Source of the DNA: Siphonodentalium dalli | Taxonomy: Eukaryota; Mollusca; Scaphopoda; Gadilida; Siphonodentaliidae | Length of the DNA: 64,000 bases | NCBI GenBank assembly: GCA_032622095.1 | Contig: CP136064.1 | Span: forward strand, 251,040,484 to 251,104,483 | Reading direction: 5' to 3' | Shown here: positions 2,932-42,100 of the stretch, in pieces | Numbering within the stretch: position 1 is the first letter of the stretch | Layout of the letters: each line of letters begins with the position of its first letter | Program-made: the position numbers and the translations under genes | The notes under the pieces: generated by a model | What the model was told of the DNA's origin: nothing | The model's input: only the letters and a program-made list of their open reading frames with translations | The model's database searches: none

Positions 2932-5900
2932 GTGAGTAGCAATAATATTTCACCATTATCATAGGATAATTGTAGTTAGGATCCCATGTACATGTATCAT
3001 TCTGATAAGATAGATACAAGGCTGAAAATAGTGTGTCTGTCAATTAAAGAATGAGGTCCAAAGAGGGTGAATTTAGTGACACTATCCCACACAGTGGCTA
3101 GAATCACCAAACTCACCTTCTGGGGACCTCATTCTGCTTAGGCCTCAACTCCCATGGGAGACTGATTGAAGTTCCCAGTTGAAGTGATGTTCACCTATTA
3201 GTAACTATGCATTTTAACTTCTGCAAATTAGGGGATATAGAAACTGAAGAGAAGGAATAGCATCACTAAATTCACACTACCAGTATGTGGACCTCAATCT
3301 GCAAATGACAGACACACTATTTGCAGCCTTGGATACATAGTCAGTTATAGCCATTTGGCAGTTTTGTTGTTATAGTGTATATGAAATGGTAAAATTTATA
3401 GTAGGGCCAAAAAAATAAATTTATTTGAGTCTCAAACAATTATTTTTCTGAATCAATGAGGGAGGGAGGACTTTTTTTTCTGCTCATCGTAAGCATGGAT
3501 CATGATAGCTTCCATTTTCTAATAATAGTAAGAAAATGTAGAGAGAACTTTTTTTGCATATTCATTGTTTAATCTGATATAAAAATTATTGTGGTACTAA
3601 CGGTACTGTACCTGTATCACAGGGACAGGGGCGTAGCAAGCAAATTTTATTGGGGGGGGGGGGGGTATAACCATTCATCGCAAAGCGATGACCTGAAGCC
3701 AAAGGCGTCTGTGGGGGAAAGCACGAGAGGGGGTTGCCCCCTCTCGATGGAAAAAAGTTTCTGACATTGGAAGCTTAAAGTGGCTCTCTGGTGGCTTCTG
3801 ACCCATCTGACATTGTTTTCCCACCACTACATTATCATAGATTAGTTCAACATTCTTATCATTTATCAATTGTAATTTCATAAAATGGTAGGCCGCTTGA
3901 AAGTGTAATGAACAAATAGGTATATGGGAATTCATGTTGTGTTATTATCTAGTCATTAATGATGTGAAATTATTCCCATAACTGGGATCAGATATTCAGA
4001 AAGTAAATATGTCACAAACAACCATGAGAAAGTAGACTACATGGATACACACATCACCATGGGTATGTATCGTGGGGTATTTATCGTGTGGGTATGAATA
4101 GTGTGGGTATGTATTGTGGGTATGTATAGTGTGTATGTATAGTGGGTATGTATCGTGGGGGTATGTATTCTGGGTATGTATAGTGGGGTATGTATAGTGT
4201 GGTTATGTATAGTGGTGGTATGTATTGTGTGAGTATGTATAGTGTGGGTATGTATAGTGTGGGTATGTATAATGTGGGTATGTATAGTGTGGGTATGTAT
4301 AGCGTGGGTATGTATAGTGGTGGTACATGTATATATTGTGTGGGTATGTATCATGTGGGTATGTATAGTGTGGGTATGTATAGTGTGGCTATGTATAGTG
4401 TGGGTATGTATAATGTGGGTATGCATAGTGTGGGTATGTATAGTGTTGGTATGTATAGTATGGGTATGTATAGTGTGGGTATGTATCATGAAGGTATGTA
4501 TGGTGTGGGTATGTATCGTGGGGGTGTGCATTCCCGCGATCGTCGGCGATACTTCATTAGTTTGCCAAATATTTTTACTAACCTTTGGAAAATATTGGGG
4601 GGGTAAATACCCCCCTTGCCCCCCCGGTTCCTACGCCCCTGCACAGGGATTATCAATAATGTTCTAATGCCCCTGACTATTCACAATTGCTATCTACACC
4701 AGACTATGATGATCAGCTAATCATTTTCTTCAATATAGTCTTTCTACTTAATGTTCTATGTCACTATGTGTATACATCATATTCAATCTATCAATCACAG
4801 AGATTTTGTTTGTTTGTTGTTGTTTTTTTGTCATAATATCACAAATTTAGCCCTTTCATGATGGGAGCTTACTGAATTTTTGCGAAAACCCTGTGCCAAT
4901 ATATTCTCAATATATATACGAGTCAATCATAGGTCGTCTCGCATATAGAAGAGAATGCATTGGCCTAACAAATTTTATATTATTTTTTATAATTGTTAAA
5001 GAATATAACAAAAAATGAAAATATTTAGAACAAAATTGTTAAAGAATTTGATTGATTTGACTTGATTGATCCAATCTGTTTTACAGAGTTATGGCCAGAG
5101 TAGTTGTCACATTTTCCATGTGAACCTCTAACCTTCTGCTCCCTCCCCTATACCCCCTCCTTCATATCATTCCCTCTCCTCCTACCCTCCACAAATTCTT
5201 GTAATAACCCTTTTTTTCTTTGACAACAATAAGCATTTAAGGCAACTTGAGTTAATTACCTGACCACATGCTCTTTCATTTTTAATCTTATCTTTTAATA
5301 AACAATGTTCCACAGAGCAATGGCATGTTTATATGTCTAAGGGTGTTTTGTTAACCGCCACTTAGCCAAGTGAATTTATTTAACTAGACCAACGTAGCTC
5401 TAGGTCCTTTGATGCTTGGACTTACATTGGATCAAACAGGACCCATATAGGAGATTTACATACATGTATGACATATGTTGTGTTTTACGATACATCCATT
5501 GTTGAATTTTTTGACATTTTTATTAGTTTCTTCAGAGTGGTGTAGTGGCTGAGTCGTAAAATATCAGTTTGAAGTAGTGAAATAAGCACAGAATATCTCT
5601 TTAAATATATTGGTATGGAGAAAAATATTTACATTGTCTACATTATTTACAATAGCATGCTGACTCCCAGTGAACAGTTTTTATAAGTGTGCCTACTAAG
5701 ATAAAATATAAGTTATATTGCACACATCAATCTGCAGATGTGTGTAGAAATTTCACTACACATTCGGCTATCACTATCCATATGTACACATCTACATTTA
5801 TACAAAATAGTGCCTATGAACAATCACCTGCTTTGTGTGCCTTTAAATCTGCTTGAAATTAATACATTTTTCTTATTTCAGGTGGGTCGAAAGCCTTTGA

Positions 5901-8900
5901 TGAAATTTTTCAGTAAATTTGGAAAAATTGCAGATTGCTATGTTCCCAAGGATCATATAAACCAGCTTCCAAAAGGGTGAGATCAGGATTTATGTTGGCT
6001 GGAAAATTCTTATGGCCAATTTTATTTCGGAATTTTTTTGACCAATTTAAAAAAAAACAGCCATAAAAATCAGTGCATAACTTTGGATAGAGTTCAATGG
6101 AAAGCAACAAAATTAGTACCTCAGCTGAAGAAACTACATTATAGAGATTGTAAGATATAATATCTCTTAAATATTGATTGCGATATTGTTTTGAGTTATC
6201 ACTTAGTATTAGGATTTCAAATTTTTGAAATTTTTACGATTGGTTTCTTTCCTTTTCCCTAACATAGGTTTGCGTTTATAACATTTGCCACCAGACAGGA
6301 TGCACAGAAGGCATTGGATGCAGACGAAGAGCAACTCACAATTGACGGAAGGTTTGTAATTAACCAGTGTTCGCGCTGTCGGGGGCCAAATTGGCCAGTG
6401 ACCAATTTTTTTCGAAATTGGCTATTACAATTTTTTTTGGCCAAACTGTTTTTACCCCAAATTGAGACGGAAAGCTAATTCAAAAGCTTAGTGACGAAAG
6501 CATTGCGGGTTTCATACTTCGGAAATATCGTACCATGGAAACCCAAATTTTGTAACAGGATCATTTATTGAAACATTTAACCAGCCAATTCAAATAATAT
6601 TTAATTAAAAACACTAATCGTCAAAATGCTTAATCTGTTCACTGGTTATGTAATTTTGTATTGATTACTTAACTCAATGGCATGCCATTTATGCAATGTG
6701 TCATAAACTGACTCCCGTCTACTACAACAATGTGTCTTCACATCATAAAACGTTTGAATACGAAAGATATTTAACAGTTATCACCTCACGGTAATAAGCA
6801 GCATTGTTTTTATCTGGGCGAAAATATAGAGCAATGACAACTAACACAGCTCATTGCTTTATTTGTTGGCGACCATGATGTCAGTGACAACAAGTTATTG
6901 CATTTCATTAAGCAGATTTATGTGATTATAATTATATAGAATGTTAGTTTCATGTTCGCGAATTTCGTTTTAGTTTCAATTGTCAACCGCCCAGAAAATC
7001 AGGATTTAATTTGGCCAAATTGTTTTTAATTTGGCCAATAAAACTTTCATTTTGCCAAACTTTTGGCCAAAAGATTTTTTGGTCGAGCGCATACACTGTA
7101 ATTAAGCCTTTCTTTACTGAATGGAATAATCACTTTCAGTTATTGAATAACTTATTAATCATCTGGAGGGTTCTTCATGAAATATAAGCAGACAACATGT
7201 AATAATAATTAATATAGCACTGGTAGTGAGTTGTCAGTATGCGCCAATCAGCTGATCGACCAAAATGAGGGTTCATGTGCTGAATTTATACTCGCCGCTC
7301 GTGGGAAAAGTTATATTCCACTGTAGCCACTTATAATTAATTCTGGTAAGAACCGCAGGTCTCCTGTATATTCTATACTCAACTCATTATTAATTCTCTG
7401 TTATATAATAATGTATTTCGTTATTTGCAATGTTTGTTGATAAATTACTGTAACAATTTTGTTTACATAACAATGCTTTCTCGATATATTTATGCCTTGG
7501 GATTCTTTAAACCAGCCCCTGATTAAATTATGATTGTTACAGCGCTCATATATTTTTCAGAGCTGTACGGGTTCACAGGGCAGAGGAATCCAAACGAACA
7601 TCAGGAAAAGTATTTCAAAACATTCCGACATTCAATGATGTTAATACCGAGGCAGGAGATTGGGATGCCTCGGATTCTGAGGTACTCACGAGGACTTCAC
7701 TAAGAACTGACTTTAAGGATATAAGCCTGGTACGATGTAGATAAAATTTCCTCACCAGGGACATGGCAATGGGGGGGGGGGGTTTAAAAATCTTAACAGC
7801 TGGAAATTTTATTCCTGACACAACATTAGTTGGAAATTTTTCAACACAGATAGCTTGAATTTGTTCTTATTTGTTCGATTTTCCAACTTGTAATTAGCGG
7901 GGAACTTGTAGGAAATTTTTCTACATTAGGTCAAAAGATTGGTCTGAAATGGCTACCAGATGAAATTTTCCAACTTTAGATGGGGGTGGGGGTTTGAAAA
8001 TTTCCAACATTTGGAAAGTTTGAGGTAGCAGTTGGAACTTCGGAGCAGAATGCGAGTGGAATATCACTAACCTGGGAGTTTTTTGGTGTAGTTCAGGTCT
8101 GGGAATGCAGTCGGAAATTTCAAGGTGGACACTCCACCAAGGGAGACCATCAAGCCACGTCCCTGCTCAGTCAGTATTTCTTCAGACTTACTCACATCAT
8201 GATTGTGCGACTTTAATTTAACAATGTCAAGTTTAGATTCACCCTCTGGGAACCTCATTTTGCTTAGGCCTCAACTGCTATGGGAGACATATGATAAGAT
8301 TGAAGTTCACCAGCTGAAGTTGGTGAAACTGAAAATAGTTTTAATACTAAATTAATATTTTATAGAATGGAGAGGACGAGAATGTGGACATCGATGAATT
8401 TTCAGCTAAGATTTCCATCAACAGCCTGTGTGATGACATACTGATGATTCTGCTGTCCCATTTACCATTACATGACAGAATCCGAGCTGAGAGGGGTATG
8501 TTCTGTATCATGGAGGCTCATTCGAGTGGGAATGGTGTATATTTGGTAGACTGGGGTTTAATTCTCATCTTGCTGATCTCTTTATAGTGTGACTTTTGAC
8601 TAACTGAATCTTCTTGTGATGTTAGTAGCTTCAAAGTTTAAAGATATGAGTATAGTATATCATTGAAATTTTATTTACCAAAATGAAGTGCATTATACTC
8701 CAAAAATTCTCCCATATTTTCTGAACTTAACAAAGTCAAAAATCTTTAATTACATTAATAACAACTTAAAAGGCCAATTTCATAAGGAAAATTCATAATT
8801 CATTTATAGGAATCCTGAATTATTTCTGAGTATGAGCGTGAGGATTAAACACTGCTTTAATGGCAACTTGATGGAATTTCATCTCCTTGGAATGTATGTG

Positions 8901-11900
8901 AAGTTATTTTCTTTTTCTAGTTTGTCATCGGTGGAGGAATGTAGCTTTGAAAATGTGGAAAGGTCAAGAAACACTGCAGTTTTTACATGTGTTCAAACAG
9001 AGGTTTGGTGGTGAGTGAACTTAATTTACTGAAGAGAAAGAGAAAAAACTGGTGTTTTAGTCTGGTTTACTATCAATAGCCCTTTCTAAATGGATACTCC
9101 CACTCAGTTATAAAAGTATTCATTGGAGTTGTCCATTATTTTTTTGGAGGGATTTTCTGGTAAAATGAGCTTAAGTTTACTTATAAATCATGTTAACAGA
9201 CCTCTGATATATGCATGTTTTGGGAAAGGCTGCCCTCTATGTGCATATACGCAAAGATTCCATTTGACCTAATCTGAAGACATGCAAGCAAGATATTCCC
9301 ACCCACAATTCTGGGAGTGAAGTTCATTATAGAAGAGTAATGGGATGGGACTCAGTCCAAAACAGCATCAACCCAACCGATATCCCAAGCTTTAGTGGAC
9401 TGAGAAGTCTTGGTCTAACTCGGCATGTAATTTTGTCATGTTACGGGTTATATATTTCAGAATTTTGTTTTCCAGGTGTTACTGACAAGATGCTGCACTC
9501 CTTACTACAGAGATGTACCAATCTGAAGAACTTAGATATGTCTGCATCTCCTCGATGTGTTACAGACCTCGGCATAGACCTCATAGGTAAGAACCAAAAT
9601 GTTCATTGATGCTGCTATACGCAAAGTGCTCCAAAGAGGCCTGGATGTAGTGTGTCTGACATTTGCACATTGAGGTCCCCAGAGGGTGAATTTAGTGACT
9701 AATCCTGCAGAGCATGATAGCATCAACAAATTCACCCTCTGGGATCCTCATTCTGCTTAGGATTCAACTGCTATGGGTGACCTAGGATCAGATTGAAATT
9801 CTCCAGTTGAAGTTTGTGATGTTCACCCATTCGTCACCTCGATTATTCAATTTAGGGGATATAGAAACTGAACAGAAGTGAAAAAGTAACTAAAACAATG
9901 TTAATTTGAGACTATAGACTCTTCCCAGAAGTCAAAATAATATTTTTTGGCTAATTTTGTTGTGGCACCGAATCTAATAGTTCTAACTCAAGGGGATGAG
10001 GTCCAAATAGATTTCTGCAGAGCTGGTAAAGTAATCTCCCACAGTTGATGTTGTAGTTAGAGACAACACTCATTGTTAGATATTCTATGGGCACACTTCT
10101 GACCCCATAACATAAAGAGGACAGGCTAAATCCCCTCCTCTCATCATTACAGGTAAATATTGTACACAGTTGCAGATATTGAATCTATCAGGAGTAGATG
10201 CTACAAACACTAATATGAAGACAATCAGTGCTGTGTGCAGCAAACTCAAGGTGGGCCTCTCACTTCATCACATCTTGTTTGGTCGAATTGTGTAAGAAAC
10301 GTTATCCAATTTAACCAAATTTGGTTCTGGCAGTTACTCATGAATATCATGGATGATTTTGAAAACTAGTCCTGCCTCAATTTTATTTCAGGAGTTATGC
10401 GCCCTAGATTGTTTCCTGGTGTCCATTTGGCTATGTAAGCATGCTATCTTCAACAAGGGCTATTTGATTTTGACCAAATTTGGTTTGTGGGTTCTACTCA
10501 AGCACACAAATTATGCCCCAACTCAACTACGGCATCTGTGATGAGCACCTCTTGTCTGGAAACTATTGATTATATGCGTGGTCAAATGCTATGTACAATA
10601 GAGAAATACTGTACATAATAATATTTCCTAATCAGTCTGTAAAAAGAAACAGTTATTATAACAGTGTATACTTGACCTTCACTGATTAGTTTACTGCCGC
10701 AGCCAATCAAATACAGATCCCGTGACCAAGTGATCAGTATTTTCACGTGTGATGACCAACTTCTATCAAAATCCTGTGTATCTGTTTACACCTCAGCAAG
10801 ACAAAAAGTTTTATACATGTGTTTTGAACTCTGATTTCTCTTAATTATTGGACAATTGTGGACTTTGGATTATATTTCAATGGATTATGTCAACGTCAAC
10901 GTCACTTTTTACCATTTTGTGTCACGTTTTTCAGGGGACATGTGGTTGGCGACATTTTATTTTAGTATATTTTATTATACTGGAATATGATTTTGGGCTG
11001 AATGGCTTATCACAGTTTTTTAGTGTGGGGATTATATCATGACAATTCTAAAATGCCACAGCAGCGAAATGAACATTTTGTAGATTTGTACTGTTTTTAA
11101 CTCTTTCATGACGGGAGCTGCGCTGGTGCAGTATTAAAGATCTTACGAACACCCTGTGTCAATGAATTCTCTTATAATTGCGAGTCTCCCATATATAAGA
11201 TAATGCATTGGCTTACAAGGTCAAGGTAAATATTGTTAGGTCAATGTATTCTCTTATATAAGAGAATGCATTGGCATAGGGTTTTTCACAAAATTTCAAG
11301 AAACTCCAATCATGAAAGGGTTAATGGATAGTCCCTAAGCCCTTATTGAACATTTAAATTACATTTCAGGAGGTGGTGCTAAAGAAATGTTTATTTATTG
11401 GAGAGACAGGGTAAGATTTTGTTTATTGCAAGTTCAGTCAAAGTTATTATTAGAAGCAAAATCGTAAAATTAAGCAATATTGAGCCAGTTTTATTGTACT
11501 GTTATTAAAGACCATAGGCCGTATCGCATATATAAGAGAATGCATTGGCCTAACAATTTTTTATAATGTTTTATAAATTTTTCTTATATTCTTTAACAAT
11601 TATTATCATTTTTTGTTATCATTTTTTCTTACATTCTCTAACAATTTTTATCATTTTTATCATTATTTCTTACATTCTTTAACAATTTTTTATCATTTTT
11701 AAATTTTTTCTTACATTCTTTAACAAATATAAAAAATAATATAAAATTTGTTAAAGGAATTAGTCTGTCAAAAAAATATTTTTTTTATCGTCATAATACT
11801 AATAATATATGTCTAACAGACCCATTTCGCCAAGAAAATTCAAAATCGAGTAGATAGTATTTTTATTATTATGATATTAAAAAAATCGCGGAAATATCCG

Positions 11901-14900
11901 AAGTCAGTCACGTGAGTGCGATCACATGACCACAACTCGGTCACATGACCGATCATCTGCATCGACGCTTACCGATGACAGCGGTGGGTGGAGCTTTAAA
12001 TAATCCGCCAATCACGTAACGAGTTGATAAATTACGCTGGTTAATTACCTACGCCTTTACGATAAATAGCGATTACGGAATAAAACTGTTTGAATGTGCT
12101 GAATTATGAACTGGATTTGCTAGAATGTTGGATTATATAACGAATAATGATGGCTAAAATGCACTTTGAGGCGATAACAGTTGTTTGAAATGAGATTAAT
12201 TTATGCAGAAATGCAATGAGCGAGCGGAATTTCGTGCGAAACTAATTTAACTTTTTCTGAAAGAATACAAGTTACGCCATATACCGGTACTTCATTCTTC
12301 GTTGTATGGTACCAATTTCGGAAGCTAGTTTACACACTAGTGTCATCCCGTTGTGCGCTATATGCGTACAATTAAATACAAATGGGGTGTGATTAAAAAG
12401 GTGGTGGTTATTGTACTAGTACATGTATCATGATGGCTTATATTCGTCATAATAATGTTCCTGTCTGTTTCTTCACACGAAACATTTTGTGTGGAGAAGT
12501 GCACGACTGTGAACAGCTTGCTAAAATCCTTCCAGTCAAGATCGATAAGTGAGTAAACAAAATAATTCACTCGAATACACAACAGACTGTTGAAACTACA
12601 ATAATTATTAGTTAGGCTGCAGTTTGGCATAACGACATTTTTTTTTAATTGAAGGTTAGCCTGGCATTATTTTTCAGTTTGTGTTTGTTGTTCGTTTTAT
12701 TTTACGTTTTGATGGCACATATTGACTTTCTAGAGAGGATTATTTTGAATTGTTAGCATAGAAAAAATCCAATGATTGCCTCTATCTGTATCTGTATGTA
12801 GTTCGGTGTAGTAGCCTTGATTTGGCTGTAGGTGCACCGTTGGACGACTTAATTAGCTGTTAATGCTCTAATAAAGAACGTCCATGTTTTCGTCGCGTGT
12901 AGACAATAAAGAGCGTTCTCAATTATGAACGTGCTCTATTTCTATATGTCATGGGTGATTTTGTATGTGGTATTGTGACAATTAAATATAAAGAGCGTCC
13001 ATGCTTCCGTCTCACAAAAGCGGTAGACAATAAAGAGCGTTCTAAATTACGCACTGTGTTGTCTTTTTTGAGGTACTAAATAATGGATCGCTAGCCCGCC
13101 CACAACTGAATACACTACATCTACTAGGCATCTTGGAATATGTGGAGATAACAGATACTCGGGATATTATATCGAAAGTAAAACAACAAACAAACACAAA
13201 ACAAAAGCGCCTAAATAGAGTTAACATTATTCAGCCCAGTGTTTATATTAATTTGGGCGCTTCTTATATATGTATGACCAGAGAGATAATGTTCTTTCTA
13301 TTCACTTTGTGGCATTTTAGAGTGCAAACAAGTTCGCGACTGACACTGATGAATAGTCACTGAGTGATTACAAATCACCGAGTGAATACGCGAGACAATC
13401 AAAGCACTAATTACTGCCATCTATTCACCAAAGCAGACACATGCCGGCATGTTATTAATGGCTACAAAAACAACAACCATTCTAGGCGTTATTAATTACT
13501 TTATTCACATAGTTATTGCCTTCTATTCCAGATAAACGACCAAAGCGTAACGTAATCTATACACCACACGCGCACATACGACTCCGCATTTTAGTATCGG
13601 CTGACTTACGATTACGTCATCGTAGTCAGCATAATAAACTTTGGCTCCGAATCTGTGTTTTTAATTTGCTCCCCACAAGTACGTCACTCGTAGTTTAGTC
13701 ACGGAAATCTCCGAATACCGGTGGTGGTATTATTTATTTATTTTACGGGTTATTTATTATGCGATCGGAATGGGACTTGGATCATTTTAATCACAACAGG
13801 GAGGGCTTTCCGATTGCGTTATGTAGTTTCTAGACCGAATAAATCCTTTAAGCCAATGCATTCTCTTATATATGCGAGGTACCTATGGTCGACTTGCATA
13901 TATAAGAGAATGCATTGGCACAGGATTTTCAAAAAATTTCAGGAAGCTCCAGTCATGGAAGGGTTAAACTATTCACACAAGTGCATATGTTGCGTTATAA
14001 CACAGAATTTCTAATAAGTTATTGCAGCTAATAAGTTCGATATTAGAATAAATGCAACATATCAAATCAATATATCTGAAATAAATGCCATATAAGGTAT
14101 ATGTTACGGCTTACGTTGCATTGAAAATTGAATGTCTCAGTTTTTTACGTTAACAGATACAATATAACAAACTCATCGCAGCCATCTGATTGCCTCATTG
14201 TTATTGTCTGTGACCCTATTTCAATGCAACGGATGAAACAGATTTGTCTGAAACCTACTTTACAATCTGATATTATATGTATGCTCTCATTTTTATATGC
14301 CCATTTTTTTAAAAAGCGGGACGTGTTATGTTATTGGTCCATCCGCCCTGTTAGCTTTTGATTATTGATAATAAGTTCAGTCTCAACTGAAAGGAATGAA
14401 ATTTTGTATGTGGGTTTACTAGCACAAAATACTGGTCAAATTCGAATTCGGTTCCACCCACCAATTTTCACCAGAGTTATGCCCCTTTTTGTTAGAATTT
14501 TCACTCAGTTTTCATTTCCGGATGATAATATTAGTAATTCTGAAATGAATGGAATGAAATTTGGTTTGTGAGTGTACTAGCCAAAAATACAGGCAAAGTT
14601 CGAATTTGGGTTCCGCCCGCCAATTTTTAAGGCCCTTTGTTGGATTTACCATGTGCGTATTTTGTCATGCCCTAGCAATGCTCTTGTTCAGGTTATGGTG
14701 GTTATTCATCAGCTTACAATATGACATTATTATTATCTTCTTAATTTTCAGATTATGGTAGCTACTCATCAGCTTACAATCTGACGTTATATGTGTGTTC
14801 TTCTTTTTCAGATTATGGTGGCTATTCAAAAATTGTCCTCTGCTAGAAGTGATTGATCTTGAAGGCAATATAAGACTAACTGGTCAGGTAATCAGAATTA

Positions 14901-17900
14901 TAAATTGTAACTGGTCAGTTAATCAGAATTATAAAATCTAACTGGTCAGGTCGTAATCCGAATTATAAAATCTAACTGGTCGGGTAATCAGAATTATAAA
15001 ATCTAACTGGTAAGGTAATCAGAATTATAAAATCTAACTGGTAAGGTAATCAGAATTATAAAATCTAACTGGTCAGGTAATCAGATATATAAAATATTTA
15101 GGTGACTTTTTGTATTCGCCAAATTAGCTACCCTTAATTTATCAATAAAAATTGTAACTGTTCAGGAAACATAGTGTCTTCACCTGCATAGAAATGTAAA
15201 TATTTTCCAGTTTGACAGAACCAAATTAATTACTATGGTGCTGGTATTAAACATAGGACATCAAATCAGAAGCTTCACTATATCTATCAAATTTATAGAA
15301 GGAACTTTTCATTCTGCCATATCGTCATAGCAAACTCATATGATACCGTCAAACACATGTCTAGTTTCATTCAAAGACATTTTAATTAATAATATTACAG
15401 TCTTAGTGAACCCAGAATCAAGTCATAAGTTTAGTGTGCCTGTCATTTGCAGAATGAGGGCCCCAGAGGGTGAATTTAGTGACCCTTTCCTGCATAGCAG
15501 GCTAGCATCACCATGTTCACCCTCTTGGGACCTCATTCTGCATGTCCTCATCTGCTATGGGAGCAGAGACGTGGCGACAGGGGGGAGGGGGGTTTGGGGT
15601 GGGGTGTCTCACCCCCCCAACTTCGGTCTAAATTTTCAACAGTTGGAAATTTCATACCTGCCAAAACATTAGTTGGAAATTTTACACCAACAATAGGTTG
15701 AAAATGTTCTTGTAGTTTGATTTTCAAACAATTTATTGGGGGGAATTAATTGTTTTTGGACCAATATTTGCATATTTTCCTATTTTTTGTCAAAATTTTG
15801 GACTGAAATGGTCATCAGTTGGAAATTATCCAACCTTAGGGGGGGGTGGCAGGTTGGAAATCTCCAACACTTGGAAAGCTTGTGTCCTGGTCCCTCCCCT
15901 GTGGCCAGTCAAAAACTGCTAGTTAATTTTAAGAAAACAATATTGTCATACATTTGGTCAACATTGTCATTGGAATTGTCATCAGTTGTAAATTTTCCAA
16001 ACTAAGTAGGGTGTCAGGTTTGAAATTTCCAACTCTAGGAATGCTTGAGGCTAGTCTAGATGCTAGGATTTTGCGATTTTCTTGTTCAGATTACAAAATT
16101 TCCGCACACCGGGTCGAACCATGGTCGGCCCAGTGTGTCATTGTTCCCCCCCCCCCCCCCCCTGGGATTTTCTTGTTCAAATTTCAAAATTTTCTCACCA
16201 GGCTGAACAACCACGGTCAGCCCAGTGTGTCGTGGTCTCTTACATGTAGCCGTGTGCATTTGTATGAAGTTAGACCACTAGATGTTAGGATTTATGCAAT
16301 GTTTCAGGTTAAAATATCTTAATGTTCTCTTACCGGGAATATAGAACCATGGTATATGAAGATATAGAATATTAGGCCTAAGCACTGAACAGAGGTGCAA
16401 GGGGGGGGGGGTGCAAATGGAATTATGCAAAACTTGTGTTTGGTCTGATTCTGATTCAAGGGGGGGGGGGGGTACAGTTGGAATTTCCCAAAGTGGACAC
16501 CTACCCAACGGAAACCATCTAGCCACGTCCCTGTATGGGAGACATAGACTCAGATTGAAGTTCCCATTGTGATGTACACCCATTGGGAACCTCGATTATG
16601 CAGTGTGTCATCTGCCAATTTGTGGAAATAGAGAAACTAAACTAGAAAAGAAATAGAATCTAAGTTTCTATAGATATTTTATAATAAAGAAACTTTCCAG
16701 AGAAGATGAGACCTAAGCAAATGTCAGACACCATATACCACATGTATTACCATTACTATTTTTGTTTCCCAGGAATATATATTTTAGTTTCTAATAAAGA
16801 TTATCCTTTCAGTGCTTCCATATGTTGGGGAACAATACCAAGAAACTTGTGCTCAACGATTGCTTGAAGGTGAGTTATATATTTTAAAGTGAAATATATA
16901 AATAAATTAATTATTAATTGTCCGTTATCACATAGAGGTTCATTGTATGTTGTGAAGTTTTTTGTGAAGAATTTTCTTTTCATCATATTGGTCCATTGCT
17001 GATTCCATGCTTTTGTGAAATCAGGAAGTCACATGGTTTGTTCTCGAAAAAGGGGTCTTGGTCGAAACTTACAGTGATTGTATTTATCTTGTAAATTATG
17101 TGTCATATCATATATATGCCTGTTACCTGTACATGCATGACACCAAGCTTGGTGCTGTGTGACGAGCAGGGTCAATGATATTAAACAAGCTTCAATTTAT
17201 ACCTAGTAACTGCTTTCTTTTGTCATATTTTGGAGTATTGACAGATAATCAGAATGATAGGCACTGGCTTAGTATCAGGTGTTCATAGCATCATAACATG
17301 TGTGAGAAAATTATAGGTACATGAAATACTTACATACGGATGTCATATTCGTTGGACAGATTTAGTTGAAGTGAAAAAAAATCATCTGAAATGACTAAAT
17401 TTTTTGCCCACTTATTACCAGGCTTGTATTTAATTCCAATCATATTCATCATTTCAGCTTAGTGATGTCGGCATACAACAGTTAACAGATAAATGTCCTA
17501 ATATAACAGAACTCCACATCAGTAACTGTCTAAAGCTATCAGACGGATCTATTCAAAGGATATCACTAGTAAGATGCATTATAAATATCTATTTTTGATG
17601 GCTGATAACTCATGCTTGTAAACTTGTATATATTAGCCATGGAAACTTACTTTAAATACAAAATTCATAATATATTGTGTTTTCTTGTCTATACTTAACC
17701 CTTTCAGTGCCAGGTCCGATTTTTGTATCAACCCATATACCCTGTGCCAATGCATTATCTTATACATGCGAGTCGACCATAGGTCGCCTCGCATATATAA
17801 GAGAATGCATTGGCCTAACAATTTTTCATCATTTGTTATTATTTTTTACAATTTTTTACAATTTTAATAATTTTTTCTTATATTCTTTAACAGACTTATT

Positions 17901-20900
17901 TTGTAGGTTTATGCCAGGCATCAAACTTATTACTATGAATACTTGGTGATAGTTTCGAGTTATAACATGCCCCTAAGGTTTTATCCAGTTTGTTTTTAAA
18001 TTCGCTATAGCATGCAGCATTGCTTAAGCATACCCAAAACAAATTCAACCCAAATGTTTTTATTATTTTTTTTTAATTTTAGGGCCGATTTTACAGACCG
18101 TAAATTAGGGCCGATGAGATCGGCCCCTGGCACTGAAAGGGTTAACATTCAGTGAAAATTTTATCAGCCTGTAAATTCCAACTACATCTTTATGCCAAAA
18201 CTAAAATTGGGTTTGTTTGGCCACTCCCTACCTACCCAAGAAAAGGCCCCTTACTCTGCCTTACTGGAATATTTTTGATCAGCCTTACATAGAAGAAATT
18301 TTATTTTTATAATATAGTTTAGCCGCAATAATAACTTCTGATATTTCACAAAATAGGTGTCATGTTTATCAAAGTTATCAGTTTCTACGAAGAAATATAT
18401 AATTACTATTATAAATTTAGTTGAAATATATTAATATTTGTCAAGTATTATTCATGGGATTATAACAGAATGGGTTGAGGTACTCGCTAAGTATCAGTGT
18501 TCCTTGTTTAAATTTGCGTGAATATATTCTCATTTCTTATCGATTAGGTCACATATCGATTAAAATAAGATGTCCGTCAATTCAGATCAAGCTTAAAAAT
18601 TTGTCCCATGTATGTGTTATTATCGAAACTGAAGAAACTTGGCCTTAGATATATTGATCTCCATGATAGTTTGTTATGTTAAGAACTGCTTGTTCCGTGG
18701 ATTTCCATGCATTCCATGGAGTATGGATGAAAGTTGGTCTGACATTTTGTGTGGCACTTGAAAAATATCAGACCAACTTCCAAACCCCATGGAACGCAAC
18801 AAAATCAATGTCCGTTTCTCATATTTGCACTCAACTGGCAGATTGAAAGATCATATAGCACCCAATTTGAAGGATATTCTGATATCGTGTTGCAATTTGT
18901 GTCCATAATATATGAAAACAAGTTGGTATGTGATATCATATTTTTTTTACAATGTCCACCCACCATTCAAGTTCCACAGAGTGAATGCATGTAGGAGTGT
19001 ATATAATATCCATTGTATTACCTTTGAAATTGAAACATTTTAACTTTTATGAAACTGAATATGGCTTATCATAAAGTAGGTATTCATGTAGAATTAACTC
19101 CCCTATTTTCTGCAGGTCATCAAAGATATCCAGGTCTTCAGTTATGGTGGAAAAGTAGAAGGTAATATATCATCAAAAGAATGAATGCATAGCCAATCAT
19201 TACCCATGCTGAATCGGAGAGAATATTCATCTACATAATATAGGTTGAACCATTTCTTTGTAAATAAAATAAGTTAAATGCTACAAAAATGTTCTTAAAG
19301 TGATGTGAAACACTCCGGTAGTGTGATCAAATAGAAATGGAGAATAATCTTGTTCAAATTAGTTATTTTTACGAATATTAATCCAAATTTCCCGCACACA
19401 CATTGTCATTCTTATATATTAATTAAATGCAATGACGCTCGATGGCGAAATCATTTACGTTAGTTTATCGCCGATTGTTGCGTCCTGAATCAAGATATAA
19501 TTTATTTACAATTGTGCATAGTTAAGACGATTATATCTATGCAGTGGTATGGTCGATTTCTTTGAGATTTTCAGCGATGTTAGTAGAATGCTACATTCCC
19601 ACAGTTGGCATAGCACCTGAATACTAACTTATCAGTTTCACGCACCCGAACAAGTACATAATATGTCTTTAATACAAGTATCTGTATATGATATGGTTTA
19701 TACCCACATTGAGAAAAAATGAACCCCTGATTTGAACACCAAACCTGGTCCAACTTGGAAGAAAAAATTACTTACATGAGTTTTTAATGAAACTGTGATA
19801 GATGAGGAAAGATCAGTTAATTTACAAAGTGTGTGATTGTCTTGGTGAGAATTTTCTGCAAAAAGAAAGTTTATTATCCCCCGCCAAATAAAATTTGCGG
19901 GGGATATAGGAATGGGTTCCATCCGTCCATATCGTCTGTCGCACCGTCTGTCCATCCATCCCGAATTTGTAAGAGTCATAACTTGAACAAATGTAAATGG
20001 ATTTCAAAGATTTTTGGTATATGAGTTCATCTTATCATTACCTAGAATGAGTTCGCAAGCCAGGTCCGGTCGGATATTATTACCGGAGTTATTGGACTTT
20101 GTTTATTATTTTTGTCGAATTTACCAAATAGCAAATAGACGACGTCACAGGGCTCATTTCCACAAATGTCAACGAATTTAAAAGATTTTTGGTATATGAG
20201 TTCACATGACCAGTATCTAGAACGAGTTCGCAACCCAGGTCCGGCCGGATATTTTCAGCAGAGTTATTCGACTTTGTTTATTGTTTTGTGTGCAAATGGA
20301 CGACGTCACAGGGCTCATTTCCACAAATCTCAACAGATTTCAATGATATTTGGTATATGAGTTCACTTGACCATTATCTAGAACGAGTTCGCAAACCAGG
20401 TCCAGCCGGATATTTTCAGCAGACTTATTGTGTGCAAATGGACGGCGACACAAGGCTCATTTCCACAAATGTCAACAGATTTCAAAGATTTTGGTATATT
20501 CGTTCCCATGACCAGTACCAAAATGAGTTCGCAAGCCAGGCTTTTTGACAAAATCCCACCTCTTGTTTAGCACATACTGAGAACGCAAACATTATTGAGA
20601 ATGCACTTCCCCAGCTGCACAATTTGGCAGGGGATACCGCCGTCTGCGACTTCTTGTTATTAATCAAACTACAATTAGTTTGTATCTTTAATATTTTCTT
20701 ACTTCATTTTGTAGTCACATGCAATGGGCTCAGGAATATAGCGAATATGTCGGCATTGGTAAGTAGATACTGATCACTCCTTTAACCCTTTACCCAACAG
20801 AAGGGCCCTGTGCCAATGCATTCTCTTATATATGCGAGTCGACCATAGGTCGCCTCGCATATATAAGAGAATGCATTGGCTTAACACATTAAAAATTATA

Positions 20901-23900
20901 AAATTGTTAAAGAATGTAAGAAAAAATGGTAAAAAGTGTTAAAAAGTGTTTTTTTAGGCCAATGCATTCTCTTATATATGCGAGGCGACCTATGGTCGAC
21001 TCGCATATATAAGAGAATGCATTGGCACAGGGCTAACTGTAACTATCACAATGTGGTCAAGGAGCCGGTTCCAATGATATCCATATTTGTATGGTTCTAT
21101 TGAGACAGACCGAAGATATTTTAGGCTGTTGAAGCTTTATTTGGCCGGTTTGTTGGGTAAAGGGTTAACCCTTTCTATACTATATACTCATTGACGAGTA
21201 GTTATCCCTTATAAATGTTCATATAATAAGTTCAACTCCCGACCATAACATTTCCCTTCAACAAATAGAACTCCTTCTTCACTATTATTATTTGTCGTCT
21301 GCTTATATTACATGTACAGCCCTCAAAATCAACAATAGATCATTCTTTATATGTACACTTTTTATATGCCCATTTGAAAAAACGGCCTTATTATGTGATT
21401 GGTCTAGCTGTCCGACCCTCCGTCCATCTGTCTGTCCATAGCAATTTTGGTTTCCGGATGATAACTTTAGTTTGGGTTATTTTATTAACTAAATTTGGAA
21501 TGTGAGTTTTCCGGACCAAATTGCAGGTAAAGTTTGAATTTGGGTTCGTCCCGATGATTTTTATCAACATTTTATTTCCGGATGATAACTTGAGTTTGGA
21601 ATATATGATCACAACTAAAAACTTGGTATGTGACTCAGTCATACTAAAATACAGGTCAAGTTCGAATTTGGGTGCGTCTATTGTTTTATACCCTGGAATC
21701 TATATAAAACTTGCTGGGTGTCCTCGATTCATGTTATTTTATACCCTAGAATCTATGTAAAACTTGCTGGGAAGAGATAGACCATCTTTAACACTATCAT
21801 TATTTCAGGTTGAGTTGAATCTAAGTCAGAACCAACAACTTACAGATGATGTGCTCATACAGATAGCTCATGGATGTCCACATCTTGAGTATGTTAATGA
21901 TTGCAATACTGTTAATTGCCATTCAAGCAAGCCTTGAAATGGGGTGTCTGTCATTTGTAGAATGAGGTCCCCAGAGGGTGTATTTAGTGATGCTACCCCC
22001 GCATAGCGGGCTAGCATCACCAAATTCACCCTCTGGGGACCTCATTCTGCTGAGGTGTAAGCAGAATGAGGTCCCCAGAGGGTGTTTGGTGATGCTAGCC
22101 CACTATGCGGGGTAGCATCACTAAATTCACCCTCTGGGGACCTCATTCTGCAAATGACAGACACCCTATTTCAAGGCTTGCATTCAAGAGTGCGTTTTTT
22201 CTTTCACATGTGTGCTAGCAAGCCTGAGATAGTTTGTCTGTCATTTGCAGAATGAGATCCTCAGCATCCCCGGCTAGCATCACCAAATTCACCCTCTGAG
22301 GCCTCAACTGCTATAGGAGACATAGGATCAGATTGAAGTTCCCCAATCGAAGTTGGTGATGTTCACCCATTTGTCACCTTGATTATGCATTTTATCTTCT
22401 GCAAATTAGGGGATATAGAAACTGAACAGAAGAGAAAAAGTAACTAAAAACAATGTTAATTTGAGACTGTAGATACTTCCCAGAAGATGAGGTCACCAGA
22501 GGGTGAATTTAGTGATGCTAGCCTGCTGTGTGGGGTAACATAACTAAATTCACCCTCTGGGGACCTCATTCTGCAAATGACAGACACACTATTTCAAGGC
22601 TTGCATGTGTGCTAGCAAGCTTCAAATAAGATGAATGACTTCTTTCTACATCACAATTAGGGATAATTGAAATGTCTCATAAAGAATTGAACCTTTTTTC
22701 GTAAAAAATTCGATAAATAATTGCTATGTAGTATTAAACTATAACATAAACGACTATTGCGAGGAGATATCTCTTGATTCCATTAGCTTAGGAAGCATAA
22801 ATCAAATTTTTAATTGTTACATAATATAGACATTGAAAGTGAGAAAGGTAACATAAAAACCAAACATGTAATCAGTGTTCATTAAAGATCTTCTTCAATT
22901 TAACTTTTGTATCTTCGAACAGGAAGCTTGACATCAGCTTATGTCACCGGCATCTTACAGACCTGGGAATCGGGGCGCTATCATGTTTAGATAGACTCTA
23001 TTATCTCAACATCAGCTATCTTCACAAGGTTTGTAAAACATTAATATATGGTTACCATCAATTTTATATGATCAAGGTCTCATTTTGTACTAAGAGACCA
23101 AACAATATGATAGAGGTTGTGAAATATGTTTGGAATATATCATCCTTCAATAAAATTCAAGTCTGATTTAACAGTCGAAGTTGGGTCGAAATAATCAATT
23201 CAATTTGTCTGAAATTTAGTATAAACTGAGACAATTTTTATCCAATTTGAAAAACTGTGTTATCTTAACACATATTGGTATTTCAATAGGAACAATACTC
23301 AGCCATTGTGCAAATATGTCTCATATTGTTCTATAATTACAGCATGCCTTTAACCCTTTCATGACTGGAGCTGTGCTGGTGCAGTATTAAAGATCCTGTG
23401 CCAGTGCATTCTCTTAATGAGCCTCACATATATAAGAGAATGGACTGGCTTACAAGGTCATGGTAAATATTGTTAGGCCAATGTATTCTCTTATGTATGC
23501 GAGGCTCTCTATTGGAGACTTGCATATATAAGAGAAAGAATGCATTGGCACAGGGTTTCGCAAAATTTCTGGAAGCTCTATAGAAGTAAGGGTTAAATGT
23601 TACAAACTGATGATCTTTAATATGTGAGAATTGAGTCCATGAATTAATTGCAGGTTACCTCAAACAGTATCAAGCTGATCGCATTGAATGGCAGACTGAA
23701 AGAATTCATAGCCAGAGCATGCTCAGAGATCGATGATGAGTGTATGTAATACCAGAGACTCTACTCGATCTCTATTTGCTGGTAGAGGGGTGATGTCGCA
23801 AGAGCTATACTTGTCCTTGACCTCGTTTAATGGTATACTTGTAGGGCGTGCATCTATAATCTCAAATCGTCTCCACCCACCATGCATGTGCTATTTGACT

Positions 23901-26900
23901 TATATATCAAGATGTTCCACCCACTTGGGTGTTTTAAAAACCACCCGAAAGATACCCATTAATTAGTTGAATATAACGTAACTGCCAATTCCGGGGTGAA
24001 GGTCGAGTATAGCTCCTGCGACATTACCCCTTAACCTATTTACTACCATTTTCTCAAGAAGGTTTGAATTGGGAGCTCTATATGCCCCTTAATTAAATAA
24101 GCTTTGATTTGTGGTGGCATTTTGAGTGAACAACTCTCTGAATTAAAGCCACATGGCGGTTTGCGCTCAAACATACACCTAATAATATTTTATTTTGGAT
24201 TTTTCTTGGTATCGAAATTGGTTGATAAATACTTGAACTACCTTTCTACAAGCATTATAAATTATGTCCCAGAATGATGCATTTGAAGTCATAAAAATAC
24301 AATTTCAAACTCAATATATGTGCCCCGTACAAAAACGGTGCCATTTGTTTAAAGTGATGTGAAACACTCCGGCAGGGTGATCAAATAGAAATGGAGAATA
24401 ATCTTGCTCTTATATATAGTCATGTTTACGAATATTAATTCAAATTGACATCACACACTGTCATTCTTATATATCAATTAAATGCAATGACTCTCGATGG
24501 CAAAATCATTTGTGTTAGTTTATCGACGATAGTTGTGTCCCGAATCGAGATGTAAACATTTACAATTGAGCGTGGTTTAGGCGATGTTTTCTATGGAGTG
24601 TTATTGTCGATTTCTTTGAAATTTTCGGCATTGTTAGCAGAATGCTATATCCCTTAGGTTGGCATAGCGCCTGATTACTTTCTGATAATTTCCACGCACC
24701 AGAATAAGTCCATAATATGTCTTGAAATCAGAATTCTGGAATCGAAAATGGAATGTCCGGAAAAGGTATATTCATAATATTGCATTATCTTAACATGAAA
24801 CTATTCAAAAACTTCATGTACTGCTTTCTCTTTGTTTTAATCATCAACATGATGCAGTACCTTAAATGTTTCAGAGTGACAACAGCTCTAGATTTTCTTT
24901 CCTTGGTCCATAGTTGCTGACTAAAAAATTTAACTAGCACAAATGAAACAATTTCAAATTTATTGAACAATATAAGAAACAATACACTTATTTTTAGCCA
25001 TATATCAATTTGTTCAGAAATCTTCCGTGAAGGTTGTGTTTTGAGATACCTTTTATCTATTATGTATACCATTACATAATTTTGGGGTTCGAATGAGCCA
25101 GATCCATTTAAGCAACATTTCCACAACGGATGTCTGAAGTAATATAATGGTGTTGGTGTTGAGCCAATTTTGGAAGGTGCCTCAAACTATATACTTAATT
25201 AAAATTCATTTCTACTTCTATCTACAAACCAACCTATACTGCTATAGTTAGAATCAAATGCTTTCTAGTCGATATAAGGAATTGAAGTTTCATACTGAGC
25301 CAACAAATTGTAGTTCCTGAGTTACAAGTAGCCCATTAGAATCATAAAACAATAATGATGCCAGCCTCACAGTTTTCTAGGGAATAACTAGGATAGCAGT
25401 TAAAAAATGAATACAATTACCGGGATAGTAATGAGCATAGTTTGGCTCTCAGATATTCACCAGCGTCTACATTTCATAGTTGTGATTTTACATCCTTTCC
25501 ATATATTCTAGTTATTTGAAAAGTAAGACATTATGAAAACAATGTCATCTTTTTTCATGTCGGCACTATTTATTTGGATGTCTTATCGGGTTTGATGATC
25601 AACAAGCCTTATTTATTACTAACTGGTAACTGTAATTGTAATAGATAGATATAAAAAGTCAGAGGTAATAACATTATACAAACACAATCTCTGAAGAGCT
25701 TTTGACCGACTGTAAAACAATACATATATAAATTGAACACATACAGAAATCATATCAATTTAATATAAGTTAAAATAAGTTATCCTAGTTAAAATACCTA
25801 ACTGTAACAGTTATCTTTTATAAATTTGCCAAGTAATAAAATTACTATATATTAAAAACATCAGTATAATTTCATTTGCCACTTCCAGTAATAACAGAGA
25901 AAAGTAAATTAGAATTTGCTTGAATTACATGTTTCTGAAGTTTTGGAATACTTTGAAATGTTAGCCAAAAACCATAATCTCCTGTAATAATAATAGAAAT
26001 GAAATGTTAAAGTTGTTGTGTTATTTACCTTTATTTGATAAGCATGCAAACCCTCTCTAATTTTAAATTAACAGGTATGCGAGTCATAGCAGAGCAGTGC
26101 TTTGAACTAGAGTTTGTGGATCTGTGCGGGAATCTAGATGTGACGTCAGCCACTCTCACTACATTCTCTAACTTATTTATTGAGAACGGTATAACACTAT
26201 ATTTGGGAGGTGAGTTTCACAAATACAACACTATCTGAAATAGAGTTTGAAATCACACATCAATCGAAATTGGAAAATACACAAACAGTGCCACTTTAAA
26301 AGATGGTCTATCTGTTCCAGGCCACAATTACAACAACAACAACATAATATTTTATAAAACCCGATTTGAAGACTACAAATAGATTTTCATATGCCTTTTT
26401 TTTTTTTAAAGGGACATATTATGTCATTGGTCTGTCCGTCCTTCTGTCTGTTCGCTTTTTTTTTCATATCAGGATGATAACTTTAGCAAGTCTGAACTGA
26501 ATGATATGAAAATTATATGTGGGTTTACTAGCAAAAAATACAGGTCAAGTTCAAATTTGAGTTCCGCCCACCAATTTTCACTGTAATGGCCCTTTTTTTT
26601 TCTAAATTTGCACTCAATTTTTTTTCTGGATGATAACTTTTACTATGTCTGAACTGAATGGAATTAAATTTAGTATGTGAGTTTACTAGCCCAAAATACA
26701 GGTCAAGTTCGAATTTGGGTTCCACCTGCCAATTTTCACGAGAGTTATGGCCCTTTGTTTAAATTACAACAGGCATAGTTTGCCATACCCAAGCAACGCT
26801 CTTCTTCTGTGAATAAAACATGGAGTTGACAAAACTGAAGATTAGGTGTATTATTTGTCTAAAGTCATAACATAAGTGGTTCATTCCTGCAAAATATGTG

Positions 26901-39130: not shown

Positions 39131-40830
39131 ACCTTTATATGGTATGAAAATCATTTATGGCTTTATATGATGTCCACCCACCATTTATGGTAATGAGCAT
39201 TGTTCTTTATATGGTGTGTGTTCACATATATATGATGTCCATTTACCTTTATATGATGTGCTTTTACCTTCATATGGCATTCCCTTTTATGATGATGACC
39301 AATGTTATGTATATGATGTGCATACGACTATATGATGTGCATACATCTTTATATGATGTCCATTCACCTTTATATGGTGTCCATTCACCTTTATATGATG
39401 TCCATTCATCTTTATATGATTTGAAGTTGTCTTTATATGGTGTACAAATGTATTTATATGCCCAGTAAATATCTGCATATGGTGTCCAATTCACCGTTGT
39501 ATGGTGTGCAAATGTCTTTATATAGTGTGCAAGTATCTATATATGGGGTCCATTCACCACTATGACATAAAACCACAGCGTATAGATGAATACACATCAT
39601 ATAATATGTACATCATATAAAGTTGTATGCACATCATATAAAAAAAAGCAGTCACCATCATAAAGGTGATTGCCCACCATATAAAGGTAAAACCACATCG
39701 TATAAAGGTAAATGGACACCATATAAACAGATGAAGGAGCAATGCCTACCACATAAAGGTGAATGGAACAGAATGGACACCATTTAAAGGTAAAACAAGA
39801 TTATATAAAAAAACAAATGCACACCATATAAATGTGAATGGACACCTTATAAGGTAAGTCACACTATATAAATGTGAATGCACTTATAAAGAACAGTGTT
39901 CATCACAAAGGTGAATGACACCATATACAGATCAATGGACTGCATATTAAGGTGTTGGACACCATATGGTAAACCCACACCATATACAGGTAAACGAACA
40001 TCATTTAAAGGTGAATAAACACCATATAGAGGCAAATTGATATCATATATATGTAAATGGACACTGTGTAAAGGTGAATGGACAACAAGTAAAGAACAAC
40101 ACTCATCATAAAGGTGAATAGACAACATATAAATGTAAATGGACACCATATACAGGCGAATGGACACAATACAAATGTGAATGAACATCATATAAATGTA
40201 AAAGGACACCACAGAAAGGCGGATGAACATCGTGTAAATGGACACCGAATAAAGGCTAATGAATATCTTATAGATGTAAATGGACACCATATAAAGGTGA
40301 ATGGACACCATACAAATGTACTGGGAGGTCTCTTGAGAAACTTGCATCAAATAAAGGACAACACTCAGCATAAAGGTGAACGGACACCACATAAAGGTGA
40401 ATGGGAAGTTTATTGAACACCTTATAAAAGTAAATGGACTTGCAGGACACCATATACAGGTGAATTAACACAATATAAATGTGAATGGACACAATATAGA
40501 GGTAAAACCACATCACATGAAGGTGAATGGGCACCATAAGGTGAATGGGCACCATATACAGATAATGGGGACCATATAATTGTGAATGTGCATCATATAA
40601 AGGACAGTGCTCATCATCATAAAGGAGATTGGACACAATATAAAGGTAAATAGACACAATATAAAGGTGAATGGACACCATATAGAGATATGTGTACTAC
40701 ATATAAAGGTGAATGGACACCATATAAAGAGAAAACACATATAAAGAACAGTGCTCATCTTCGTAAATGTAAATGGCCGGACACATATATATACATGTGC
40801 ACATCATACAAAGGTGAATGGACACCATAA
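39130..40830. repeat. Degenerate minisatellite, about 21-bp unit, reversing orientation near 39.55 kb
   Basis: From 39130 to about 39550 the unit reads TTATATGGTGTCCATTCACC. From about 39570 it reads the other way, GGTGAATGGACACCATATAA. The unit length, a multiple of 3, leaves long open frames rich in Ile, His, Leu, Tyr and Val on the minus strand; these are artefacts. Confidence 0.9.
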
Positions 40831-40834
40831 CAAG

Positions 40835-42100
40835 AGATGGACTGTCGTCCGGTGCATACCCCCTCATGGCATACCGCCTAGTGTGGGCACATCTATAACT
40901 TATGATGGCTATACTCAGACATATGGACCCAGAAATCAGCATTTTCATATAAACAAAGATGAATAACTATAGAACAAAAAACCAAAACAAACATTTGAAT
41001 GTGCCATTAAATGCCCCTCATAGTGGTGAACATCCATACAAAATTTCATTGAGATCCGATCATTACTGTTCAAGTTATGAGCTGAACAGACATCGGACGG
41101 ATCAAACAGCCAACATTTCCAGATAAACAAAGATGAATTACTCTAGAATGGAAAAGCAGAACAGAACAATGGAACCCCCTATTGAATGTCCTCATAGCAG
41201 TGAACATCTATACCAAATTCCATTGAGATCCCAGCACAATTACTATTGAAGTTACGACATGAACAGACACCAGACGGACCAAAAAGCCAACATTTCCAGA
41301 TGAACAAAGATGAATAACTCTAGAATGGAAAAGCGGAACAAAACGATGGAACCCTCTTTTTAATGTCCTCATAGTAGTGAACATCCATACCAAATCCCAT
41401 TGAGATCCCAGTACAACTGTCGAAGTTACGACATGAACAGACACCAGACGAAACCAAAAAGCCAACATTTCCAGATGAACAAAGATGTATAACTCTAGAA
41501 TGGAAAATCCTAACAAAACGATGGAACCCTCTATTGAATGCCCTCATAGTAGTGAACATCCATACAAAATTTCATTGAGATCCGAGCACTACTGTTCAAG
41601 TTATGACACGAACAGACATCGGACGTACGCGGACTCACGGACGCACGGACGGACGGACGGACAGGTGCAAAACAGTAATCCCCCCCTTTTTTTTTTTAAA
41701 TCCAACATTTCAAGATAAACAAAGATGAATAACTCTAGAATGGAAAATCCGAACAAAACGATGGAACCCTCTATTTAATGTCCTCATAGTTGTGAACATC
41801 CACACCAAATTTGGTTGAGACCCCAGCACAACTGTTGGAAGTTATGACATGAACAGACACCAGACGGACCAAAAAGCCACTATTTCCAGATAAACAAAGA
41901 TGAATAACTCTAGAATGGAAAATCCAAACAAAACGATGGAACCCTCTATTTAATGTCCTCATAATAGTGAACATCCATACCTAATTTCATTGAGATCCGA
42001 GCACTACTGTTCAAGTTATGACACGAACAGACATCGGACGGACGTACGGACTCACGGACGGACGGACGGACAGGTGCAAAACAGTATACCCCCCCCCCCT
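40835..42100. repeat. Tandem GTCC-type repeat units (about 190-210 bp), minus orientation
   Basis: Repeated blocks are CATTTCCAGATAAACAAAGA, AACTCTAGAATGGAAAA, ATTGAATGTCCTCATAG, AACATCCATACCAAATT and GAGATCCGAGCAC, ending in GGACGGACGGACGG tracts. At least five units. The same family is tandem at 45370 and, in the opposite orientation, at 59795. Confidence 0.85.

Follow-up and report, generated by a model that had tools for sequence, protein, structure and literature searches.

Tandem arrays on both borders of a 76-nt leucine-rich repeat exon in a putative FBXL-type gene of the scaphopod Siphonodentalium dalli

The window analysed here is a stretch of 64,000 nucleotides from the genome of the scaphopod mollusc Siphonodentalium dalli (GCA_032622095.1, contig CP136064.1, forward strand positions 251,040,484 to 251,104,483; coordinates below count from its first base). 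On its plus strand lies what appears to be one gene, with modelled exons across 5882–26209, in which one 76-nt exon encoding part of a leucine-rich repeat (LRR) is bordered by a 60-bp tandem repeat on its acceptor side and a 31-bp tandem array on its donor side. As a preliminary description of this DNA had held, these are two independent repeats, unrelated to each other. On the sequence evidence we think it fairly likely that two separate tandem-duplication processes reshaped both borders of this single LRR exon, with the non-coding copies of its splice sites now acting as decoys. The donor in use today probably came from the 31-bp array itself, carrying 12 nt of array sequence into the coding region.

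Results

The 76-nt exon (14812–14887, plus strand) consists of 1 nt followed by 25 codons (LWWLFKNCPLLEVIDLEGNIRLTGQ) and is joined to its neighbours in frame. The preceding exon (11370–11410, plus strand; 41 nt, ending in phase 2, EVVLKKCLFIGET-G, with the donor AGG/GTAAGA) forms with it a continuous cysteine-containing LRR, and the following exon (17458–17568, plus strand; phase 0, LSDVGIQQLTDKCPNITELHISNCLKLSDGSIQRISL) carries the LRR frame on. Reading frame and LRR homology thus support the coding borders 14812/14887, the pair named in the preliminary description. With the neighbouring exons held fixed, we combined each of the three acceptor copies with every downstream GT within 14690–15110, and only 3 of the 72 resulting single-exon products were open, all of them using acceptor 14812 (with 14848, 14887 or 14917), whilst the other 69 carried a stop. 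Only 14812/14887 gives a full LRR together with good sites. The donor at 14848 would shorten the exon to 37 nt and is weak (score 4.05; vertebrate-like values were used throughout for the weights of splice sites and for the 5′ end of U1, and the scores rank sites only roughly). The donor after 14917, a GT created by mutation in unit 2 of the array, does not score above zero and would add 10 residues; it is the single GT beyond 14887 (to 15110) that keeps the frame. Donors lengthening the exon in 31-nt steps, as earlier suggested, would therefore yield hardly any usable longer protein. No two-exon product (0/130) and no three-exon product (0/40; introns of at least 40 nt) was open, and skipping of the exon also leads to a stop. 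Because nearly all products tested carry stops, as does skipping, splicing at this exon is predicted to be close to all-or-nothing for the protein. A new intron or micro-exon within the 60-bp copies is rejected on these frames, with 0 of the 170 multi-exon products open.

On the acceptor side Tandem Repeats Finder (TRF) places the array at 14687–14828 (period 60, 2.4 copies, score 198), and the tripling of acceptor and exon start seen in the preliminary description is borne out, with three acceptor AGs whose first exonic bases are 14692, 14752 and 14812. Each 60-bp unit joins 43 nt of the intron 3′ end to 17 nt of the exon start and so spans the intron-exon boundary. Copy 1 (14687–14746, plus strand) holds acceptor 14692, a copy of the 17-nt exon start, a branch-like ATGAC and a pyrimidine-rich stretch (score 8.4). 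Copy 2 (14747–14806, plus strand) holds acceptor 14752, an exon-start copy, a branch-like CTGAC and a pyrimidine tract (score 9.9), and within its exon-start copy lies the in-frame TAG (14759–14761) that an upstream acceptor had been said to bring in. Partial copy 3 (14807–14828, plus strand) holds the coding acceptor 14812 (score 13.75) together with the 17 nt that truly begin the exon (LWWLF). The exon start is identical to each upstream copy at 15/17 positions, and copies 1 and 2 agree at 47/60. Acceptor scores rise towards the exon (8.4, 9.9, 13.75), which favours 14812, the strongest of the three.

Further upstream, 14260–14294 (plus strand) is the intronic part of an outermost copy of the 60-bp unit, with a branch-like CTGAT and a pyrimidine-rich stretch, and is identical at 29/35 positions to 14774–14808, the stretch of the unit before the coding acceptor. 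Its match score was reached by 0/5000 shuffles and by 9/5000 random 51-mers from the window, the latter number being, at a rough estimate, close to that expected from 51-mers overlapping the copies. Between this intronic part and its AG lie about 395 bp (14295–14689, plus strand; the left edge may be off by a few bases), which run right up to the first acceptor AG (14690–14691). The stretch 14289–14689 is 75% identical over 431 aligned columns to 26383–26807 elsewhere in the window, and its tail, ...CTCTTGTTC, forms the pyrimidine tract of the first acceptor, the tail of the relative being ...CTCTTCTTC. We read 14295–14689 as an interspersed element that appears to have landed inside the outermost acceptor copy, just before the AG. 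Such a position would imply that duplication came first and insertion later.

On the donor side the TRF array runs from 14869 to 15095 (period 31, 7.3 copies, score 350) and contains seven whole units (14876–15095, plus strand), each with a donor-like motif. The seven copies at a 31-bp period that had been described are thus present, except that unit 3 is 34 bp long (start-to-start spacing 31, 31, 34, 31, 31 and 31) and one donor GT is lost. Donors follow 14887, 14949 (damaged), 14983, 15014, 15045 and 15076, and the loss is at 14918. The motif reads CAG/GTAATC in units 1 and 7, CGG/GTAATC in unit 4 and AAG/GTAATC in units 5 and 6; unit 2 has CAG/TT, its donor GT being lost, and unit 3 has CAG/GTCGTA with a 3-nt insertion. 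GT therefore stands in register in 6/7 units, with NNG/GTAATC kept in 5/7, and a TAA lies at 14939–14941. Units 5 and 6 (15003–15064, plus strand) are identical at 31/31 positions and each brings an extra CTG/GTAAGG donor, after 15009 and after 15040 respectively, which outranks the coding donor (matrix 9.3 vs 7.3; U1 duplex −8.5 vs −8.1 kcal/mol). With donors in two units further downstream outscoring the one in use, noisy splicing on the donor side is plausible; nothing in the sequence makes 14887 clearly the best donor, so some decoy use is plausible too. The identity of units 5 and 6 likewise makes copy-number variation of the array plausible. Other pairs of units differ at 2–4/31 positions (unit 3 being compared without its 3-nt insertion), and as the 31-bp units differ at 0–4/31 and the 60-bp copies at 13/60, the right array appears younger or more homogenised than the left. 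A degenerate half-unit (TAAAAATTGTAACTGTTCAG) lies outside the array at 15146–15165 (plus strand) and is 90% identical to the 20 nt at 14899–14918.

The preliminary description had also raised regulation through multiple donors. In the comparison between units we saw no selection on the repeated donors, the donor 9-mer being slightly less conserved (93.7%) than the remaining positions (96.8%); this argues that many donors are not kept by selection, and against that proposal. RNA structure hiding the decoy donors was examined and rejected, as no copy stands out in predicted accessibility; the GTAAGG donors were predicted to be unpaired at 0.18–0.20 and the GTAATC donors at 0.45–0.54.

The relation of the array to the protein is seen in the last 12 nt of the exon (14876–14887, plus strand; CTAACTGGTCAG, encoding LTGQ), which are the part of unit 1 upstream of the used donor and recur unchanged where units 3 and 7 begin. 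The left edge of the array at 14876 falls exactly 12 nt before that donor, and the exon sequence 5′ of 14876 shows no likeness to the unit beyond chance (1286/2000 shuffles reach its score). In the LRR crossing the exon end the cysteine-to-cysteine spacing is 30 residues, compared with 27, 25 and 26 in the three preceding repeats. Removing LTGQ raised the match to FBXL2 from 70.7 to 95.1 bits and that to FBXL17 (6w66) from 48.8 to 59.5, and a deletion of 3 residues in the preceding repeat lowered the scores to 52.0 (FBXL2) and 43.2 (FBXL17). A scan of deletions of 1–8 residues, run against the matched FBXL2 and FBXL17 target segments only, gave 4 residues as the best excess for both proteins. 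For deletions of 4 residues, the 14 highest-scoring starting points all fell within residues 96–111, around the junction, LTGQ being residues 105–108. Because LTGQ is the start of unit 1 and the LRR is 4 residues too long, the used donor looks array-borne, with 12 nt (LTGQ) probably taken into the exon in frame. The preliminary description took the array to be copies of the exon end; the evidence leans towards the reverse, with the exon end being part of the array. Where unit 1 starts with CTAACT, unit 2 and the degenerate half-unit start with GTAACT; this would suit an earlier donor at 14875/14876 that a single change abolished, but is no proof of one.

Several points weigh against this history. 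Removal of EGNI gave 79.5 (FBXL2) and 60.3 (FBXL17) bits and that of LTDK 91.1 and 42.6; within the scan the gain from deleting LTGQ was small (73.9 to 79.9 for FBXL2, 49.9 to 56.0 for FBXL17) and was exceeded by the overlapping deletions LSDV (85.5, FBXL2) and GQLS (60.0, FBXL17). The excess length is firm; it can be placed only to within some dozen residues at the exon junction. A repeat of 30 residues may also fall within the natural range of LRR lengths. At 14875/14876 the sequence now reads CTAACT, so that the proposed old donor can no longer be seen, and restoring a G for the C would still give a weak site by the matrix. Finally, the arrays, reading frames, stops, split outer acceptor copy and 4-residue excess are directly observed, and from them we infer the order of events, the exact place of insertion, the use of the sites, the ancestral state and the fate of aberrant mRNA.

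Each array lies far beyond chance: when the whole window was dinucleotide-shuffled 20 times, no TRF score exceeded 69 and a total of 7 arrays reached 50. Their pairing on one exon is by itself only mildly surprising and not strong evidence. The window is rich in repeats, TRF arrays of period at least 10 covering 12.5% of it, and when the 28 merged arrays were placed at random a mean of 2.9 of the 24 exon borders was covered (observed, 2). In 5.2% of 20,000 random trials some exon among the 12 had two different arrays on its two borders. When each junction was compared with sequence up to 400 bases away, the best copies of its own 24-mer matched at 21/24 and 23/24 for these two junctions and at no more than 16/24 for the other 22. 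The same measure at 300 random positions in the window had its 95% point at 22 and its 99% point at 24, so that the acceptor is not exceptional.

The host gene was recovered as 12 exons in an incomplete model, of which the 76-nt exon, numbered 10 in the preliminary description, is the 8th. What seems to be one gene combines an RRM, the start of an F-box and cysteine-containing LRRs. The RRM is encoded by exons 5882–5976, 6268–6351 and 7561–7681 (plus strand; RRM_1, 45.2 bits, Pfam), and the F-box start by exon 8366–8495 (plus strand), which matches profile positions 1–24/43 at 13.9 bits (E=0.053) and so falls short of the 20.5 that Pfam sets as cut-off. One open frame joins the LRR exons 9476–9586, 10153–10250, 11370–11410, 14812–14887, 17458–17568 and 21809–21892 (plus strand), and 22923–23028 and 26075–26209 (plus strand) are probable further LRR exons; others may lie in the interval from 17568 to 21809. 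The gene model of the window recovered neither the first exons nor the one that would complete the F-box. Among solved structures the closest relatives of the joined LRR part are FBXL2 (E=1.1e-18) and FBXL17 (E=6.3e-12), and the protein would be of FBXL type by its cysteine-containing LRRs, which are related to those of FBXL proteins, its F-box being only half matched. The combination of RRM, F-box start and LRRs is reminiscent of the annotation of C. elegans EEED8.10. Searches on the host gene itself yielded nothing further of use.

A second copy of the gene was not found by tblastn inside the 64-kb window. Rfam at the gathering threshold gave no match and NCBIfam none above cut-off. The LRR peptide, scanned against viral contigs, gave 7 pattern matches with none confirmed as a relative, and the pattern of the 31-bp unit had 0 exact matches across prokaryote genome contigs.

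Other repeats occur in the window. A foldback element (AGAATGAGGTCCCCAGAGGGTGA ... TCACCCTCTGGGGACCTCATTCT) with the look of a miniature inverted-repeat transposable element is present in many copies in both orientations, at 21959–22151 and 56419–56615 and further at about 9648–9777, 15432–15563, 50891–51022 and 60619–60745. The highest TRF score of the window (2190) belongs to a 22-bp tandem array of about 54 copies with a 96% match at 62686–63871. Repeats of 21 bp like TATATGATGTCCATTCACCTT, oriented both ways, form long runs at 39161–43105, and a 41-bp unit present 2.4 times at 100% identity (51559–51658) is possibly very recent. The segment 27480–28320 has 52.6% G+C, against 36.2% for the window, and several overlapping open frames.

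Discussion

We propose that on the left a 60-bp block would have been tandemly duplicated into the intron, an interspersed element later landing in the outermost copy, and that on the right a 31-bp minisatellite would have grown from about the first base of the intron. The donor of unit 1 would then have become the one used, so that 12 nt of the array entered the exon in frame and added LTGQ, placed after the beta-strand part of the LRR. Today 14812/14887 would be the coding pair and the other copies decoys, the use of which would almost always lead to a premature stop. mRNAs with premature stops are generally degraded by nonsense-mediated decay. Occasional use of a decoy would chiefly cut the yield of good mRNA, most of the aberrant molecules presumably being degraded.

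Among the alternatives the one that survives best, though we judge it unlikely, is that the excess is old LRR length variation, the array having grown later from an existing junction so that exon end and donor were copied as one, and that the duplicates are inert intron debris. This is near to the view taken in the preliminary description. LRR lengths do vary within the family, the gapped TRF alignment takes the array to 14869, slightly into the exon, and the scan does not single out LTGQ as the site of the excess. What argues against this account is that the exon 5′ of 14876 is no more like the unit than shuffled sequence is (1286/2000 reaching the score) and that the excess corresponds exactly to a segment of the array, 4 residues to 12 nt. 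A further reading, which we hold to be improbable, is that the array behaves as a variable number tandem repeat of splice donors, in which slippage would alter the number of U1 sites after the exon, some of them stronger than the coding donor, so that individuals differ in the amount of spoiled F-box mRNA, the outer acceptors providing a second leak, and the array having once replaced the donor and added four residues.

A regulated poison switch, in which the sites are kept so that a shifted choice leads to stops and nonsense-mediated decay and thereby sets the protein level, would agree with the stops in 69/72 single-exon and 170/170 multi-exon products tested and with the strong downstream donors. 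We nevertheless hold it to be very improbable, given that donor 9-mers are less conserved than the rest of the unit (0.937 vs 0.968), that one GT is lost and one interrupted, that predicted accessibility singles out no copy and that frame-shifting alternatives in an AT-rich intron would be expected to meet stops anyway. False expansion of a single junction by a read-assembly error, to which the 31/31 identity of units 5 and 6 might point, can be almost wholly discounted, as the differences between other unit pairs (2–4/31) and between the 60-bp copies (13/60) form a pattern unexpected from such errors and an independent element splits one acceptor copy.

Read as two duplication processes acting on one exon, this locus is a small-scale example from nature of a coding exon whose two borders are reshaped by tandem repeats and an interspersed element. 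The protein probably bears a legible mark of it, namely four extra residues matching 12 nt of the array. Species without the array are predicted to be without the four residues. The exon is also a test case for the choice of the spliceosome among near-equal donors 31 nt apart.

The repeat units of the human gene IFI6 are 12 nt long. Two papers cite a minisatellite in this gene that provides multiple splice donors (PMC2572611, PMC4526556), with two downstream repeat units reported to serve as donors, for three mRNAs in all (PMC4526556). The array described here resembles IFI6, as there portrayed, in lying on an exon-intron border with donor motifs in its units (GT in register in 6/7), and differs in having units of 31 bp, in the stops that most of its predicted products would contain and in an acceptor side that has likewise been multiplied. 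In potato RdRp an intron is reported to have been gained by tandem duplication across an intron-exon boundary (PMC4974935), and the 60-bp unit is like that duplication in comprising an intron 3′ end (branch site, pyrimidine tract and AG) and an exon 5′ end. A new intron is supported in potato, whereas here none of the 170 two- and three-exon products tested was open, which gives no sign of a new coding intron. Tandem alternative donors, GYNGYN among them, are described as mostly enabling subtle protein variations (PMC1779574). As with those donors, several lie close together at one exon; unlike them, set three bases apart by their motif, the donors here are about 31 nt apart and the frame is mostly lost. 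In the literature surveyed, mainly titles and the beginnings of abstracts, we found no case with both borders of one exon affected, which is no proof of absence. As far as these sources go, minisatellite donors and boundary-spanning duplication are both known, and their two-sided occurrence on one exon is the variant seen here.

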